From assembly GCF_014842925.1 (NCBI RefSeq), contig NZ_JACYXJ010000001.1:310001-374000 (forward strand): a DNA stretch of 64,000 bases. Reading direction: 5' to 3'. How positions within the stretch are numbered: position 1 is the first letter of the stretch; each line of letters starts with the position of its first letter. A model generated the notes under the pieces. The model saw only the letters and a program-made list of their open reading frames with translations. It searched no databases and had not been told where the DNA came from. This stretch comes from Roseibium polysiphoniae. Lineage in GTDB: Bacteria; Pseudomonadota; Alphaproteobacteria; Rhizobiales; Stappiaceae. The position numbers and the translations under genes are program-made. Shown in pieces: positions 5,820 through 12,342 of this stretch.

Positions 5820-6587
5820 TTAGCAAAGCCAGCAATTGTCAGGAAGGCTCGCGGGACCCACCGCACCTTCGGTTTCGATCCAGCTTGCGATGCCGTTCTG
5901 GACATTTGCGATCTGGGTGAAGCCGGCTTTCTCCGAAAGATGTTGAGACAGAACCGAACTGCGATTGCCCGACTGGCAAATGAAAACGATCTCGTCGCCA
6001 GGTCCGGCGATCACTTTCTGGAGTTCGTCTCCAAAGGCCGGATTGACCTGGCCTTTTTCGTCGAAGAACGTAATCAGATGGCTGCCGGCGAGAACGCCGG
6101 TGGCCTTCCATTCATCGGGCCGCCGGATGTCGACGACCGGAACTCCGGCCGCTAGTTTTGCTTTCAGCTCATCATTGCCGATGTCGGAAAATTTCTTGCC
6201 CTTGACCTCGAGCAGCTCGACCTCGAACTTCAGCGTCGCATTCGGCGGGATGACATTTCCTGCACCCCGGCGGCCATAGCCAAGTTCCGGCGGAATGATC
6301 AATTCGCGTTTGCCGCCGACTTTCATGCCTTCAACGCCCTGTTCCCAGCCGGGAATGACCCGCCGCTCGCCGAGGGTGAACGAGAACGGCTGATTGCGAT
6401 CATGACTGGAATCGAACTTCGTGCCGTCCATCAGCCAGCCGGTGTAATGCACCACCACCGTCTCACCGACGTTTGCCTCTTCTCCGGTGCCGATCGTGAT
6501 ATCAGTGACCTTGAGCTCCTCCGCCTGGGCCGGCAGGATGAACAAGAGCAGGGCGGACACAGCCGCTGCGATGATTGGTCTGAGCAT
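5820..6587 (-). CDS. Secreted FKBP-type prolyl isomerase fused to a rhodanese domain
   Basis: The 255-residue protein begins with a Sec signal peptide (cleavage likely after PAQA, residue 22). Residues about 25-128 form an FKBP domain ([52 protein letters not shown]). Residues about 133-248 form a rhodanese domain ([10 protein letters not shown], active-site loop [10 protein letters not shown] with Cys204). The last residues are NCWLC, giving a C-terminal CxxC pair (Cys252, Cys255). FKBP domains speed prolyl isomerisation in protein folding; rhodanese domains carry persulfide sulfur or bind oxidised species. Joining both in one periplasmic protein is unusual and suggests a folding or thiol-repair role in the envelope. 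A GAGG lies just before the ATG. It converges with the DMT gene and has no clear operon partner. Confidence 0.9.
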
Positions 6588-6747
6588 TTAAAACCTCGTC
6601 TGGATGATGAACACCGCCCGACCACGCCCTGTCAAAACGGTGAAGTCAAGGCAACACTGACCATGATGCAAAGCTTGGCACGAAAACGCAGATCAGAAAA
6701 ACGGCGGCGGTTTCAATCAAAGCCATCCGCAAAAATGGTCGCTTGGT

Positions 6748-7482
6748 TCAGGTCTTGGCTTCGCTGCGTTTGGTCATCTCAAGCAGCTTGTCGAGGTCGG
6801 CCACTTCACAGTAGTTCGCTGATCGGTAGGCCTCGAACCATTTCGCCGCGTATTCCGCGTTTTCCGTTTCTGGATACCATGGCCCTCCGTCCGTATAGTG
6901 GACGGCCTGCGGTGTCTCGACGCCCTTGGTGTAGTCGGCGAGATAGTTCCAGCTTGCTGGGATTTCGCCGATCAGGTGATCACCCTCGAGCCATTTGAAC
7001 TGATGGAGCTGAAGGCCGGTCGCAGAATTCACGTAGTCGGGGGTCAGCGCGGTACACTTCGCGTTGTTGAACAAGATCACGCTGGACCAGTTCTTTTTTT
7101 CGTACCTGGTCTGCTTCTCGCCAAGAAATTTCGTGTCTTCAGTCGGGTTGTGATCGTGCTTCACGCACATGACAGAGTATTTGTCATCTCGCAGCGCCCA
7201 AAGCTTGGCGATATCATCAAGGTAGACGATGTCGTTGTCCATAAAGATAGACCAGCCGGAGAAACCCGAAAGATAAGGCGTCAAAAAGCGGGAAAATGAG
7301 AACTCTGTCGACTGGTTTGGATCCGTGTTTCGCCAGAAAATATCTCTCATATTGCGAAGATTCAGCGGCAGGACACTAACTGGAACACTGCTGTGTTCCG
7401 TTATGGAATGCGCGAGTGTTGTTGACGCAACATGGATCCGGCGATCGTAGCCGACGAAAATCCTGACAACACTGTCATGCAT
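6748..7482 (-). CDS. GT-A-fold glycosyltransferase-like protein
   Basis: The 244-residue protein opens with VRIFVGYDRR and has a DxD-type metal/nucleotide-sugar motif (FMDNDIVYLDD, about residues 80-90), then SSVILFNNAKC and GDHLIGEIPASWNYL, a pattern seen in GT8-like glycosyltransferases. It probably transfers a sugar from a nucleotide sugar, but donor and acceptor are unknown. No membrane segment is seen, so it is likely cytoplasmic. It is the last of five minus-strand glycan genes, 52 bases after the previous one, and its base composition is closer to the host average than theirs. AGGTGAG precedes the ATG at 7482. Confidence 0.75.
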   Translation of the reverse strand: MHDSVVRIFVGYDRRIHVASTTLAHSITEHSSVPVSVLPLNLRNMRDIFWRNTDPNQSTEFSFSRFLTPYLSGFSGWSIFMDNDIVYLDDIAKLWALRDDKYSVMCVKHDHNPTEDTKFLGEKQTRYEKKNWSSVILFNNAKCTALTPDYVNSATGLQLHQFKWLEGDHLIGEIPASWNYLADYTKGVETPQAVHYTDGGPWYPETENAEYAAKWFEAYRSANYCEVADLDKLLEMTKRSEAKT

Positions 7483-7534
7483 TTTATCTCACCTTCGGAA
7501 TCAGAAAAGGATTTCAAGCTACAATTGTGTAAAT

Positions 7535-9364
7535 TCAGTGTGGAGTTTGATCAAGTATATGCCTCAAGAATTCATCCGTCGTTGCCAATTCTTCAGGCGT
7601 CCAGACCAATCCACAAACCTCTTCATCGGCAAGCCTATCCTGGTGATAATCTCGCAGCGCTTTGAGCATTGGTCCCAACTCGTGGGCGGAACGAACAGCA
7701 TAAACTGCGGCACGTCTATTGGCAGTTGGCGGCACAAAACTTGCCGGGAAATGGAAGTATTTTCTGCGCCATGTATTCAGAAGCAGTGGGATGCGATTGT
7801 CGAGCGCTTCCTGGAGCGTCGCTGAGTTGTTGCCGACGAGGAGGTCCATTGTGCCGAAGAGCTGACCAAGTGGAGTTTCGGTGTCAATTTCAACTCTCCC
7901 ACAATACTCTGGCTTTTTTAGCTCTTGATTGAGCCATTCGACGGGAAGTCCGGTTTTATTCGGTTTCAGCTTGATCACTAAGCGAATACCATCCACTTGG
8001 GAAGCTGCCCTTGAGAACTCCAGTAGGCCGCGAAGATACTCTCCAGGCGTTTCGGTGACAAATGGAACATAGTTGCACAGCTCACGATAGTTTCCCGCCA
8101 TAATGATCAGAAAGGCATCGGAACCTTTTTTGAAAGATTTGTGTTTCGGGCCGATGCGGATTGGAAGAATCTGAGGGGTATTTTCGTGCATTTCCTTCGC
8201 AAGTTTAGCCGTCAATGGGCCTTTGCAAAACAGTGTATCTAAGCCCGGCAAGATAATTCGGCCATGACGCGCCCAGAATTTCGCCCCAAGTTTCGACAAT
8301 CGGTCAGTTTGGGCTGTGTCGCTTCCATGATTAGCCATTAGAGCCGGAACACCTGAGGCAGCAAAATCGACGGCGGCCTGATACACTGATGGCTGGATCA
8401 AATGGTCGATGACAATTACTTGCGGCTTTGCGTGCCGGGCCAGAAGTTGTCCTGCGATTACATCCTGTGCGATGTTGGCCATATGTCGGTTTAGGCCTTT
8501 GTTGATGGCATCTGCGACAGCGGTCGAAATCTCCTTGCTCGGATTAATTCGTAACGGGCTTAAATGTTTTGACTGCCTGGGCAATGGTGCTCGGAACAGT
8601 GTGACCTCACATCTTCGCCCACGAGACAAAAATATACTACAAACTGATTTTAATGTTCGGCGAATGGTAGAAGCTATCGTTTTCCCTGGAGGACGAGCAG
8701 AAGCGATTACAATATTTTGATTGGAATTTGCTATTGTATTGCAAATTTTTGAAGTAAATGGAGTTGCTCTATCTAGTTGAAGCGCCATGGGGCGATGGAG
8801 TACAAGGCGCTGAATGATTTTATTTGAGAAGTGACAAAGGTAAGAGTTCAATTTGCTGCACCGGTTGTTAGGGAGAAGCGCCAAGTAGCTATCGCCCAAG
8901 TGGCACGCCAATTCGCCGATTGCCGCATCTTGAGAAATTCCAGCCAAAATTCGTCCGCGAGATTCGATTGCAAATGATGAGAAAGGGATTTTTTTTAACG
9001 TTTCTTCCAAGAGAAGCAGGGCTGGTATATAATTAAAAAGAAAAATGCGACAACTTTCAACAACCCCTGAGGGAATACCATCAGTTGAAAGAGTGTTTTC
9101 TATGTTATTTATGAGAATTTCTGATTTTAGAAGTATTTCCGAATGTGTAGATGTGGTAATGATATTTTCTAATTCGATTGTGTTTAAGCCATTAAATTTT
9201 AAAAAATTTGCAGCGTCGGGTGAGTAAGCTACGCAGGTTAGTTCTCTAGCGTGTAGATGTTTAAACGCTTGTGCCTGTTTAAGGTCGAGCGCAACTAAAG
9301 CAGTGGCATCGGTAGGTGCATTCATTCGGATAGATTTTTCATCATTTTTAGAAAATGTTCGCAT
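7535..9364 (-). CDS. Large GT-B-like surface-carbohydrate biosynthesis protein
   Basis: The 609-residue protein resembles capsule and surface-polysaccharide glycosyltransferases. In the C-terminal half it has a nucleotide-binding-type pattern: FLIIMAGNYRE after a linker, VIKLKPNK, and DLLVGNNSATLQEALDNRIP, where a Ser/Thr-rich turn followed by Glu contacts the donor in GT-B folds. The N-terminal half has only diffuse similarity and a possible acceptor domain (VIVIDHLIQ, ALMANHGSDT). The exact family is uncertain. The gene is AT-rich, especially at its 5' end, with 18 G+C out of 60 bases at 9121-9180, unlike the GC-rich neighbours, which suggests horizontal transfer. It follows the preceding minus-strand gene by 22 bases. 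Confidence 0.65.
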   Translation of the reverse strand: MRTFSKNDEKSIRMNAPTDATALVALDLKQAQAFKHLHARELTCVAYSPDAANFLKFNGLNTIELENIITTSTHSEILLKSEILINNIENTLSTDGIPSGVVESCRIFLFNYIPALLLLEETLKKIPFSSFAIESRGRILAGISQDAAIGELACHLGDSYLALLPNNRCSKLNSYLCHFSNKIIQRLVLHRPMALQLDRATPFTSKICNTIANSNQNIVIASARPPGKTIASTIRRTLKSVCSIFLSRGRRCEVTLFRAPLPRQSKHLSPLRINPSKEISTAVADAINKGLNRHMANIAQDVIAGQLLARHAKPQVIVIDHLIQPSVYQAAVDFAASGVPALMANHGSDTAQTDRLSKLGAKFWARHGRIILPGLDTLFCKGPLTAKLAKEMHENTPQILPIRIGPKHKSFKKGSDAFLIIMAGNYRELCNYVPFVTETPGEYLRGLLEFSRAASQVDGIRLVIKLKPNKTGLPVEWLNQELKKPEYCGRVEIDTETPLGQLFGTMDLLVGNNSATLQEALDNRIPLLLNTWRRKYFHFPASFVPPTANRRAAVYAVRSAHELGPMLKALRDYHQDRLADEEVCGLVWTPEELATTDEFLRHILDQTPH

Positions 9365-9386
9365 CGGGCTATTTTTACCGACCTCA

Positions 9387-10076
9387 TCAAAGTAATGGGT
9401 ATCTTCGCCAAGATTTAAAGGAATACGGATTTACAGCTCCATGTGCACTGACTGCTGAGATTTCTCTATCTACAAATCGATATCTTGGTAGGTGATTTAA
9501 AGATCTAATTGCCTGGTTGTTACTGATCTCTGGAGCGTTATCTGCTAAAAGAACCCGAATAACTTTCTGATCGCTGCCTTCAAAGCTTTTGCACTCTAAG
9601 AATTCGCTTGGATTATCGTTGAATTTATTCCATATATGATTGAGGCTGTCTCCTTTAAAGTAATAAAATCCGCAATTTAGATGTTTTCTTCCTTCGTTGG
9701 TGTGATAAAAGCCGTAATCATAATTGAAGATTAGATTTGATTTGAATAATTTTCTAGGGAAGAAATCCAAATCAAGCATTACATGAATGTTATTCGGATC
9801 TGTCCGCGCGAAAATGTCCAGCCCCTTTAGTCGATGGTAGCAGCCGCCAAGATCTCGATGGTCTGACCAGAGAGGTGATACCTCATACTTACAATCCTTC
9901 CTTTCCAAGCAATTTGGATCAGCGTGGAGTGTGAAGCGGAATCTTTGCGGGCAGTAATTTTTTACTCGTTGGTGTAATTTGTTTACGTGTTTCTGTGTGA
10001 ATGACACATTGAGTTTTTGTTTAGGAAGTTTGAATGTCCCTCTCGGTTTCCAGAGGAATGTGTGAAAGTGTATCAT
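9387..10076 (-). CDS. AT-rich gene, probable GT-A-like glycosyltransferase
   Basis: The 229-residue protein has no certain family match. It contains IHVMLDLDFFP (a DxD-like acidic motif on a hydrophobic strand, about residue 100), LNCGFYYFKGDS and FEGSDQKVIRVLL, which together look like a nucleotide-sugar binding GT-A core. It is basic, lacks membrane segments, and is strongly AT-rich. Its ATG overlaps the stop of the methyltransferase gene before it (ATGA-type overlap, 10073-10076), so the two are translationally coupled. The function in glycan assembly is inferred from neighbours and the acidic motif. Confidence 0.55.
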   Translation of the reverse strand: MIHFHTFLWKPRGTFKLPKQKLNVSFTQKHVNKLHQRVKNYCPQRFRFTLHADPNCLERKDCKYEVSPLWSDHRDLGGCYHRLKGLDIFARTDPNNIHVMLDLDFFPRKLFKSNLIFNYDYGFYHTNEGRKHLNCGFYYFKGDSLNHIWNKFNDNPSEFLECKSFEGSDQKVIRVLLADNAPEISNNQAIRSLNHLPRYRFVDREISAVSAHGAVNPYSFKSWRRYPLL

Positions 10077-10699
10077 AATGTAGCTTTCGCAAGTATAATA
10101 GTGCCAGAGTAAACTCGATTGGAGTTTTTATTCTTCTCTTGATTCATCAAGAGTTTTTTGACAAAATAGAGTATAATTTTTTTATTTTTCGACCTTGGGT
10201 GGAACTTTTCAATTAAATCTACGACTACTGTGCCAAGTGTTCCAATTTTTCTCGACTGAACGACTTCCCAGCCAGATCTTTTGCATAGATATATCAGGTA
10301 AGTTTCAGTAAAGCGGCGATAATCAAAAGGATCTCCATGTTCGTGGTAGACAAATGGCGTCGAAATCAGTATGTGCGTACCGCTTTTTATGTGGCTTGCG
10401 AGTTGATTCCAGAAGTCCTCGATATCAAATAAGTGTTCAAGTAGCTCTGATAATACAATTAATTTAGCCTTTTGAACTTCCTTTACCAGCGTGACCGGCC
10501 AAGGTTGGGTAATATCACAAAGTAGGTCTGGAGACGCAGAACTATCAACATTAATGATATATCTATCAGAAGGTAAAACTCCATAGTCTATGCTGCGGTC
10601 TCCACCAAAATCCAAAGTGGGGCCGGAGATTTTGTTTTGTGTGAGAATCTCATTAACACCCACTTCGAGCTGGTGTCTGTGCAAGGTCATCCAAGGCAT
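10073..10699 (-). CDS. SAM-dependent methyltransferase (class I fold)
   Basis: The 208-residue protein has motif I GPTLDFGGDRSIDYG (residues 26-40), an acidic end of strand 2 (NVDSSASPDL), and motif post-II/III LIVLSELLEHLFD, followed by HILISTPFVYHEHGDPFDYRRFT, typical of small-molecule or sugar O-methyltransferases found in surface-glycan loci. It likely methylates a sugar or lipid-linked glycan. A second in-frame ATG at 10690 has AGGA nine bases upstream and may be the true start. The gene is AT-rich like its neighbours and is coupled to the next gene by a 4-base overlap. Confidence 0.75.
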   Translation of the reverse strand: MPWMTLHRHQLEVGVNEILTQNKISGPTLDFGGDRSIDYGVLPSDRYIINVDSSASPDLLCDITQPWPVTLVKEVQKAKLIVLSELLEHLFDIEDFWNQLASHIKSGTHILISTPFVYHEHGDPFDYRRFTETYLIYLCKRSGWEVVQSRKIGTLGTVVVDLIEKFHPRSKNKKIILYFVKKLLMNQEKNKNSNRVYSGTIILAKATL

Positions 10700-10701
10700 T
10701 C

Positions 10702-11412
10702 CTATGAATCGAAAATGGACATTGATATTTCTTTATCTGATCTCGATTTCAGTGTTTGTATTACTTCGTCTGACAGATCGTCAGAAGAGAATTCACGAAG
10801 GTTTTTGAATTTTAGTTCTTTTTTAGTTTCTCGCGATAGCTGGTTTTGTAAGACGATTGTTTTTGGAGTGAGGTTTAGAAAGGATTTCAAATTGTGAGAA
10901 ATTTTTTCTTTTCTCGATTTGAATTTTTTCTTGCAAAAATGCTCAGGTAAATAATTCAGTTTAGAATTTTCAGTTATATTGTTGTTGTGGATGGCGATCA
11001 TTAACATAACTTGATCCCATACATGTGGGTGTTGTCGACAATAGAGAGACCACAAATCGATGATACTCTTACAGGCCGGTGAATTACTAAAGAATACAGT
11101 ACCGCTCATAAGGCGCCAGCCGTCTTTGATATGAGCAGCTATGTCACAATCTTCAAGATCAGGCAGTTCAGTGTTGAGCACTGCATCCGCGTCAAGCCAC
11201 CAAAAACTTTCGTTTAGCTCAGCAGAAACTGCCTGGATAAACTCGGATTTTTGCGCGCAGTTCTCCACCCAGGTGGGTCTCGCAGGTAATCCGCGGATTA
11301 TATAGTCGACGCCGACGTCGTTTAGGCTCTTCTCAAGTTGTCTTACCTCAAGTTCATAAGGAGTATTTAGGGTGTAGTAACTGACAATCTTCATCTTTGC
11401 GCCCATGGACAT
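10702..11412 (-). CDS. GT-A-like nucleotide-sugar transferase
   Basis: The 236-residue protein has a DxD-type motif in SFWWLDADAVLN (about residues 69-80) followed by GWRLMSGTVFFSNSP and HVWDQVMLMIAI, matching the general layout of nucleotide-diphospho-sugar transferases that place the donor at DxD and later bind it with a D-Q pair. The substrate is unknown. Residue 7 (MKIVSYYTLN, 11394) is an alternative start. The C-terminal third is Lys/Ser-rich and AT-rich. It is the first gene of the AT-rich island and begins 36 bases after the sugar-kinase gene, so the island may be transcribed from the aldolase-kinase promoter. Confidence 0.65.
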   Translation of the reverse strand: MSMGAKMKIVSYYTLNTPYELEVRQLEKSLNDVGVDYIIRGLPARPTWVENCAQKSEFIQAVSAELNESFWWLDADAVLNTELPDLEDCDIAAHIKDGWRLMSGTVFFSNSPACKSIIDLWSLYCRQHPHVWDQVMLMIAIHNNNITENSKLNYLPEHFCKKKFKSRKEKISHNLKSFLNLTPKTIVLQNQLSRETKKELKFKNLREFSSDDLSDEVIQTLKSRSDKEISMSIFDS

Positions 11413-11448
11413 AATATTCTGTGTTGATGCCGTGGAGGTATAGGAGTT

Positions 11449-12342
11449 CTACTCCCAAAGCCATGCCGCGCCGCGGACACCGGAGCTGTCGCCGTGCTTG
11501 GCCTTGCGGATCGAAACCTCGTAATGATCAGACATTACATACGGATCCATCAGCTTCGCTAGATCGTTATATAGTTCATCCACGTTCGACATGCCTCCGC
11601 CGAGAACGAAGCAGTCAGGATCCATCAGGTTGGCAGCCATGGCGAGTGCGCGGGCGAGGCGGCTAGCATAGGCCTCATAGGTGGCTCCTGCAACAGCATC
11701 GCCGCTGCGTTTGAGGGCCATGATTTCGTGGCCCTTGAGCGCCTTGCCTGATCGCTCGAGATAATCTGCCTGGAAACCCGTACCGGAGCACCAGTGGTCG
11801 ATTGCGCCGGGGTGACCCAGCCAGTTGGTTGGCCCGGGAAATTCCTCAGATGTCATCCAGGGCACAGGGATCGCACCCCATTCGCCGCCAATGCCGTTGG
11901 CGCCCCGGTGCGCCTTGCCGTCGATGGCGATCCCCGAGCCTGAGCCCGTGCCGATGATGACGGCATGAACGAAGTGGCAGCCCGCGCCCGCGCCGTCGGT
12001 CGCTTCCGAGACCGCAAGGCAATTGGCGTCGTTTTGAATGCGAACTTGGCGTCCTAGTCGTGCTTCGAGGTCGCGGTCCAGCGGTCGGCCGTTCATCCAG
12101 GTGGAATTGGCGTTCTTGACCAGACCGCTCGCCGGAGAAATTGACCCCGGAATGCCGAGCCCGAGCGTGCCGGTCTCACCCGTCGCGGCTTCCGCTCCGC
12201 TGACGAGCGCCGCCACCGCCTCGAGGCAGCCGTCATAATCGTCGCGCGGCGTGGGAACCCGTTCCCGGTAGAGCTCAGCGCCATTGGCATCCAGCGCTAT
12301 GATCTCCATCTTGGTGCCGCCCCAGTCAATGCCGAGCCTCAT
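11449..12342 (-). CDS. ROK-family sugar kinase (fructokinase/Mak-like)
   Basis: The 297-residue protein starts with the ROK phosphate-binding motif GIDWGGTK and has QNDANCLAVSEATDGAG, where the Asp is the catalytic base, and GTGSGSGIAIDG. It would phosphorylate a hexose using ATP. The usual ROK zinc motif CxCGxxGCxE is replaced by WLGHPGAIDHWCSGTGF, so the zinc site is largely lost. The region after it (SGTGFQADY) resembles E. coli Mak. Its ATG lies 3 bases after the aldolase stop, with AGAGGA in the aldolase's last codons, so the two are one operon. Substrate is not certain. Confidence 0.85.
   Translation of the reverse strand: MRLGIDWGGTKMEIIALDANGAELYRERVPTPRDDYDGCLEAVAALVSGAEAATGETGTLGLGIPGSISPASGLVKNANSTWMNGRPLDRDLEARLGRQVRIQNDANCLAVSEATDGAGAGCHFVHAVIIGTGSGSGIAIDGKAHRGANGIGGEWGAIPVPWMTSEEFPGPTNWLGHPGAIDHWCSGTGFQADYLERSGKALKGHEIMALKRSGDAVAGATYEAYASRLARALAMAANLMDPDCFVLGGGMSNVDELYNDLAKLMDPYVMSDHYEVSIRKAKHGDSSGVRGAAWLWE

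Follow-up and report, generated by a model that had tools for sequence, protein, structure and literature searches.

A replaceable candidate surface-glycan tailoring island beside a ROK-family gene in Roseibium polysiphoniae

The gtrABC serotype-conversion cassette carries the flippase GtrA and its partner GtrB, both membrane proteins. Replacement flexible genomic islands, in the available part of PMC4033161, hold, at one site and between the same flanks, different genes of similar kind in each lineage, they are associated with exposed structures and phage recognition, and their exchange is linked to phage. A glycosyltransferase family 8 (GT8) enzyme of pelagimyophages was argued, in the available part of PMC7029224, to modify the host O-chain against coinfection; a relevant virus is Pelagibacter phage Mosig, announced in PMC7892664 (a word search of the accessible text of which did not return “glycosyl”). 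Here, we describe a block of five genes, P0002 to P0006, within a 64,000-nucleotide stretch of the Roseibium polysiphoniae genome (contig NZ_JACYXJ010000001.1, positions 310,001 to 374,000; hereafter the window, to which coordinates refer unless another locus is named). Adjoining the 3' end of a ROK gene, this block is probably a replaceable island whose products tailor a surface glycan, either lipopolysaccharide (LPS) or, less likely, capsule. It is a swappable surface-sugar island of a familiar kind documented in a new place, and its link to the phage cassettes is only partly demonstrated for the window.

The whole variable block spans 4801 bp (6654 to 11454), and all five of its genes are on the minus strand: P0002 (6748 to 7482; 244 amino acids [aa]), GT8-like; P0003 (7535 to 9364; 609 aa), GT-B-like on moderate evidence; P0004 (9387 to 10076; 229 aa), GT-A-like with the DxD-bearing motif MLDLDFFP; P0005 (10073 to 10699; 208 aa), a predicted S-adenosylmethionine-dependent methyltransferase; and P0006 (10702 to 11412; 236 aa), GT-A-like with the motif WWLDADAV. 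The initial annotation had these open reading frames (ORFs) at the same coordinates and on the same strand, spaced by 22 to 52 bases apart from overlaps; the gaps are 52, 22, -4, and 2, with a single pair overlapping, so that the 2-base gap falls outside that range. All three of the DxD-like motifs that it had pointed out (FMDNDIVY, MLDLDFFP, and WLDADAV) were found in the translations. To the left lies the conserved, syntenic gene for an FKBP-rhodanese protein (5820 to 6587, minus strand; PF00254 and PF00581), and to the right, also syntenic, that for a ROK fructokinase-like protein (11449 to 12342, minus strand; PF00480; top NCBIfam model, fructokinase, at 425.3 bits versus a cut-off of 443), whose 3' end forms the variable junction. 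In the sister genome G026, FKBP and ROK share 97% and 95% aa identity with those of the window, and the adjoining flanks share 91 to 94% DNA identity. There the block is absent, with about 25 unmatched bases instead in the aligned junction, and blastn collinearity with the G026 locus (L068) stops after position 6653 and restarts at 11455. Neither convincing terminal repeats at the block edges nor a tRNA near them was found.

The site was surveyed in 36 genomes: that of the window (G000; 4.58 Mb in 12 contigs) and 35 informative relatives of the same genus with ROK and FKBP within 8 kb. Locus L121 of G022 was left out (a 5.6-kb contig on which ROK was not the best copy and FKBP was lacking), and G001, G037 to G042, and G044 lay outside the survey, covered only by the searches with P0003 and P0002. 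Three genomes carried the island at the site, namely, that of the window and the congeneric Roseibium aquae (G036) and Roseibium hamelinense (G043), and 33 did not. The initial annotation had named the same genes at this spot in all close relatives as an outcome that would speak against acquisition; with three carriers among 36 and an empty site in G026, that is not what was found. In R. aquae and R. hamelinense, P0003-like and P0002-like genes lie by FKBP, and at the ROK end there are, in the opposite orientation, genes for a methyltransferase and a GT-B-like protein. ROK-side gaps were examined in five other genomes (G024, G013, G015, G016, and G005): a glycosyltransferase family 2 (GT2) gene lies at the ROK junction in G015, a Methyltransf_23 gene lies there in G005 and has relatives (66 to 90%) in the corresponding position of G016, G034, G006, and G009, and the genes in G024 and G013 were, by inspection, not glycan genes. 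The three carriers, G015, and the five Methyltransf_23 genomes thus give at least 9 of 36 genomes with sugar-tailoring-type genes directly downstream of ROK, and the ROK/FKBP junction is, as judged from predicted gene content, a hotspot for such genes.

Between conserved flanks, the same site thereby holds differing gene sets (those of the window, of R. aquae and R. hamelinense, of the G005 type, and of G015) or none (G026). The likeness to replacement islands rests here on site, flanks, and gene content; those described in the accessible text of PMC4033161 occur in all strains, whereas the present one varies across species, measures 4.8 kb, and is found in 3 of 36 genomes. On a ROK+FKBP+SthA protein tree with 36 rows, of which two were less than half filled, three changes account for the distribution of the island, and supported branches force two of these. 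The presence of the island does not follow the tree, since shuffled labels need equally few changes. The patchiness could have arisen by repeated loss as well as by exchange, a point that tells against replacement. Apart from the island, the G026 locus has a gene that by inspection is chemoreceptor-like (L068:9917-11602) between FKBP and a DMT-type transporter gene, which the window lacks at that place.

Base composition divides the block. An AT-rich tract between GC-rich neighbors, as first reported, was borne out: in 1-kb steps, G+C was 57 to 61% on both sides and 37 to 42% over about 8.5 to 11.5 kb, with 47 to 50% over 7 to 9 kb, and a recount of 9121 to 9180 again gave 18 G+C in 60. The reference for composition was the 50 other non-overlapping window ORFs of at least 150 aa (55 in total with P0002 to P0006). 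G+C at third codon positions (GC3) was 0.38 to 0.43 in P0003 to P0006 versus a reference mean of 0.689 (standard deviation, 0.045; minimum, 0.541), and their codon-usage z scores ranged from -6.5 to -9.0 (P0004, -8.8; P0005, -9.0; P0006, -8.2), making these the four most deviant and the four lowest-GC3 ORFs of the 55. P0002 was host-like (GC3, 0.66; codon z, -1.0; rank, 12th of 55). The horizontal acquisition suggested by the initial annotation fits P0003 to P0006, which are foreign in composition, but not P0002, which is host-like and has counterparts at this site in two other species. We dropped the idea that the whole island is recently foreign because of the host-like composition of P0002 and because its four-fold sites have diverged to the same extent as those of the neighboring genes.

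P0002 looks, from these comparisons, like an old and strongly constrained resident of the site. Its aa identity is 88% to the R. aquae copy and 85% to the R. hamelinense copy, compared with 71 to 78% for the flanking ROK, FKBP, and aldolase proteins; at four-fold sites (88 to 133 for each gene), its identity to the same two species is 0.44 and 0.40, and that of the flanks is 0.32 to 0.50. Given flank-like four-fold identity together with higher aa identity, P0002 appears to have diverged for about as long as its neighbors under stronger constraint; separate gains of a P0002-type gene from equally old donors may also have produced this pattern. P0003 is, on alignment, a divergent version of a gene also present at the same site in R. 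aquae (44 to 45% identity) and R. hamelinense (41 to 43%) and in no other of the 101 genomes searched, with four-fold identities of 0.23 and 0.35, respectively. Such values would fit an old GT8 gene beside a rapidly replaced partner, and a constrained GT8 beside fast-changing partners hints at an enzyme acting on a conserved acceptor. Along P0003, in steps of 61 codons, GC3 is 0.23 to 0.49 in the first 244 codons and 0.43 to 0.57 in the remainder, and the N-terminal half is less similar to the homologues than is the remainder. A scan of the genome contigs with the P0003 profile A1 recovered only R. aquae and R. hamelinense, an order-wide search of 397 genomes with A1 added one weak, short match with an internal stop (G695), and the P0003 profile found no relatives among viral contigs.

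The putative activity of P0002 is that of a retaining glycosyltransferase of the GT8 type. It matched phrog_28018 (E, 6e-49), and it has both the DxD and the conserved H-x-T-x-G-x-P of the family: D82, D84, H195, G199, and P201 were invariant in alignment A4 (30 rows, P0002 and 29 chosen homologues). Its homologue in G049, a genome of the same bacterial family, scored exactly at the PF01501 cut-off (24.3 bits). Against solved structures, neither the P0002 sequence nor the A4 profile gave anything convincing, the best match of A4 being a GT8 protein at E 0.14. Related copies have varied surroundings, with a GT4 gene adjoining L085 (from another branch) and a methyltransferase-like gene (below cut-off) beside the copy in G089.

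P0003 had no match in Pfam and nothing convincing among solved structures by sequence. Searched with Foldseek against the PDB, its model gave six matches at E <= 0.001 (a polysialyltransferase, UDP-N-acetylglucosamine-2-epimerase-type enzymes, and a UDP-glycosyltransferase), the best being the bacterial polysialyltransferase at E 1.3e-4; we take the GT-B fold to be common to all six. Lower in the list stood unrelated proteins, e.g., quinone reductase 2 and GcpE (E of about 0.04 to 0.08). A second structure comparison returned 50 rows that by title were GT-B type except for 6oyc and 8ahe (titles uninformative), with Z of 7.0 to 8.5, close to the level that the tool rates as common. The evidence that P0003 is GT-B-like is moderate, and the model itself supports such a fold only weakly. 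For P0004, Pfam gave nothing above chance, and no relatives were found in 86 other genomes of the family, in 384 others of the class, or among viral contigs, plasmids, or phages (E <= 0.01); at E <= 10, two phage records appeared, the better at E 0.02. Its identity to the Pelagibacter phage protein Mosig_00092 is 24%, and the DxD columns coincide in multiple alignment A3 (20 of the 80 phage loci returned, Mosig, and P0004), which supports a GT-A-like assignment at the superfamily level. Comparison of profiles A4 and A3 gave an hhalign probability of 12, and the P0004 and P0006 sequences, like profiles A2 and A3, gave nothing convincing against solved structures.

P0005 matched PF13489 (Methyltransf_23) above cut-off (E, 2.3e-7) and had matches in 4 other genomes of 87 (best E, 1.5e-8; 26% identity), that in R. 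aquae lying on a non-island contig, and no relatives among phages. Among 87 genomes of the family, P0006 had a match outside its own genome in G002 alone, where the homologue (38% identity) lies in a low-GC glycan island. Over two thirds of its length, P0006 also showed 27 to 31% identity to proteins on 8 plasmid records from Rhizobium, Ochrobactrum, and Phyllobacterium. The G002 island itself (L095:1375-8230; GC of its genes, 0.37 to 0.49, with four of six at 0.37 to 0.41) encodes a sulfotransferase, a GT2 protein, a Caps_synth protein, an AT3-SGNH acyltransferase, and the P0006-like protein, and it adjoins high-GC GT4 and GT2 genes.

Several results weigh against taking these proteins for glycan enzymes. 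P0002 and P0006 matched their Pfam families under the curated cut-offs (PF01501, E 1.8e-4 and 21.6 bits versus 24.3; PF03407, E 0.0012), the P0003 model, built from three sequences, is of low confidence (predicted local distance difference test [pLDDT], 45; predicted TM-score [pTM], 0.41), and a single-sequence model of P0004 was discarded (pLDDT, 35), leaving no confident structure. Furthermore, two copies examined from the more distant Roseibium GT8 group (L080 and L083; about 42 to 43%) adjoin genes that by inspection seem unrelated to glycans. The initial annotation of a glycosyltransferase and methyltransferase island thus stands as regards gene families and DxD motifs, and support for the glycosyltransferase folds is only indirect: the structure prediction that it had proposed gave a weakly GT-B result for P0003 and an unusable model for P0004.

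As first reported, no Wzx, Wzy, or ABC exporter is encoded: there is none among the five products, and by a crude hydropathy count none of the window ORFs that reach 150 aa has more than eight transmembrane (TM)-like segments (we take the multi-TM ORFs at 17.5 to 24 kb to be cydDC/cydAB by their appearance). Among the five products, family searches revealed no sugar-nucleotide enzymes, and the Pfam search gave no gtrABC-type match at E <= 1. By the same hydropathy count, TM-like segments are lacking in four products and P0003 has a single borderline one, which makes cytoplasmic action likely. Because the island has no exporter and capsule machinery does not track it, its enzymes would tailor a glycan exported by other systems, in the first place LPS. 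With respect to enzyme activities, glycan, LPS target, sugar methylation, and phage selection, we infer the following. A conserved GT8-like enzyme and a fast-changing GT-B-like partner would work with a set of enzymes that can be exchanged: in the window these are a methyltransferase and two GT-A-like enzymes, and in their place R. aquae and R. hamelinense have a different methyltransferase and a GT-B-like protein. The products, which seem soluble, would probably act in the cytoplasm, where they would furnish a glycan with a short, methylated branch or cap before the existing machinery of the cell exports it; the LPS core or O-chain is the likeliest acceptor. Cells would thereby display a variable surface epitope, which is probably selected by phage predation and may alter phage receptors.

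LPS is the most likely target only by analogy, which tempers this proposal, as does the presence in the genome of the window of five Capsule_synth matches, some of them beside a gene that by inspection is polysaccharide-export-like. The island enzymes could instead extend or branch a capsule of the KpsC/KpsS type, which is encoded at another place on the contig of the window (G000:C4:543-547 kb). Capsule_synth genes do occur in all three island carriers, and a 31% relative of the C-terminal part of P0003 sits in a polysaccharide locus of Rhizobium sp. WL3 with an ABC transporter and nonulosonate genes; nevertheless, PF05159 matches were found in 14 of 18 chosen genomes, including that of the window and also the island-less G026, and we consider this alternative unlikely. 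A separate locus of the same genome (L299:8728-17835, on G000:C6) holds dTDP-rhamnose-type genes near a transposase-like fragment (names by inspection) and a Capsule_synth gene.

A surface protein such as flagellin, in place of a lipid-linked glycan, is in our view quite an unlikely target of the island enzymes. The soluble-looking enzymes and the lack of an exporter or ligase in the island would suit such a target, as would a weak match near the G089 GT8 copy to the MptE-like Pfam family, which presumably includes flagellin-glycosylation proteins. That match, however, reached 28.6 bits versus a cut-off of 34.6, the genes read to the left and right of the island include none that looks flagellar or adhesin-like, and the phage GT8 is tied to LPS in the available part of PMC7029224. 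We regard it as highly improbable that the block is a decaying, nonfunctional remnant of a larger polysaccharide locus, as the missing exporter and sugar-nucleotide genes might suggest; all five frames are open, the GT8 gene is under strong purifying selection, and an equivalent island has been kept at the same site in two other species. Scans for promoters and terminators were set aside and carry no argument in either direction (11 promoter-like sites versus 6.8 expected; 2 terminator-like sites versus 7.7). Literature on Roseibium with lipopolysaccharide and glycosyltransferase contained nothing on this island by title or start of abstract, which is not proof of absence in print. If it is indeed a surface-glycan tailoring island, the locus would be a compact, experimentally accessible case of a marine alphaproteobacterium changing its surface glycan through a swappable module, for which the sister genome G026, with its natural empty site, offers a comparison.

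The closest phage members of the GT8 family share 50 to 54% identity with P0002. Among 50,697 phage records, P0002 matched 18 (best, Pelagibacter phage Mosig at 50%), and in IMG/VR it matched 60 loci (best full-length match, 54%), many of them near-duplicates with 41 different GT8 sequences. For the GT8 tree, 93 sequences were sought, of which 6 were discarded for having fewer than about 170 aligned residues, and the merging of 18 identical ones left 69 rows; the tree is drawn from the midpoint and gives no direction of transfer. P0002 falls in a 46-row branch (Shimodaira-Hasegawa-like approximate likelihood ratio test [SH-aLRT], 97) with 39 phage rows and 6 other bacterial rows. The seven nonphage rows of that branch group together at 84, the R. 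aquae and R. hamelinense copies being closest to P0002, and a 19-row GT8 group from other genomes of the same genus falls outside the phage-rich branch.

In the 60 phage loci, GT8 stands beside DxD-bearing, GT-B-like, and methyltransferase-like proteins (single-linkage clusters, labelled by inspection): c1 (GT-B-like) in 49, c2 (GT-A-like, VDADMV) in 46, c3 (GT-A-like, MDLDVV) in 35, and c4 (methyltransferase-like) in 20, among other families. The Roseibium island differs in being chromosomal and without sugar-nucleotide genes, and P0004 is comparable only at the superfamily level. Ten phage-family profiles were searched (E <= 0.01) in 91 bacterial loci, the window among them, which together comprise 2286 ORFs and of which some overlap. 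The c3 profile matched P0004 (2.4e-5) plus several GT8 proteins, the best of which (L077) scored 1.8e-5; P0004 was rejected as a member of c3, its match being no better than theirs. The c1 and c2 profiles recovered neither P0003 nor P0006, c2 having reached P0006 at E 0.046 in a set of 27 proteins, and P0005 was rejected as a member of c23, as it reached E 4.4e-4 among those 27 proteins but was not recovered at E <= 0.01 among the 2286 ORFs. In the window, only P0002 is, by these searches, securely of a phage-family type; P0003, P0005, and P0006 appear without a link to phage parts.

For other islands than that of the window, the partner-gene link to phage cassettes is, by profile matches, stronger. 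The c12 profile matched only the GT-B-like proteins of R. aquae (7.1e-10) and R. hamelinense (9.6e-6), and c23 matched only their methyltransferases (8.4e-6 and 7.9e-4), these families occurring in 6 and 3 of the 60 phage loci, respectively. The sole c2 match (E, 1.2e-64) was the G049 protein adjoining its GT8, in reverse order relative to the phages; c1 matched a 900-aa protein of G049 (5.8e-5) and capsule proteins, one from G000 (1.1e-3), and c4 matched a methyltransferase of the G002 island (9.1e-15). As for the remaining profiles, c5 matched five epimerase-type proteins in other loci, c11 one protein at 1.5e-3, c0 GT8 proteins (18 rows), and c6 none of the 2286 ORFs. The G049 island (L078), likewise AT-rich (GC, 0.41 to 0.42 versus 0.50 to 0.55 for most neighboring genes) and located at a different site, combines a GT8 (55% to P0002) with GT-A-like, Capsule_synth-type, and methyltransferase proteins, and its partners are closer to the phage-cassette families than are those of the window. 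Its 900-aa protein (L078:4662-7364) joins PF05159 (E, 3.7e-14) to the GT29 sialyltransferase-type PF00777 (E, 8.1e-7, above cut-off), a family that we take to be mainly eukaryotic.

It is possible, though rather doubtful, that the islands of Roseibium and its family share one gene pool with the glycan cassettes found in marine T4-like phages, and that a phage coinfection-exclusion cassette built on this GT8, once captured at a bacterial hotspot, has persisted as a receptor-changing locus with a GT8 core and swappable partners. That this GT8 family is common among marine phages hints at parts shared between bacteria and viruses. If the proposed function is right, the island would also connect bacterial surface islands with the cassettes that abundant marine phages carry for glycans and whose function has so far been inferred. 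Phage Mosig also has a second glycan-type cluster (L122:901-7543), near a VrlC gene, with aminotransferase, carbamoyltransferase, methyltransferase, weakly GT8-like, and P0004-like genes.

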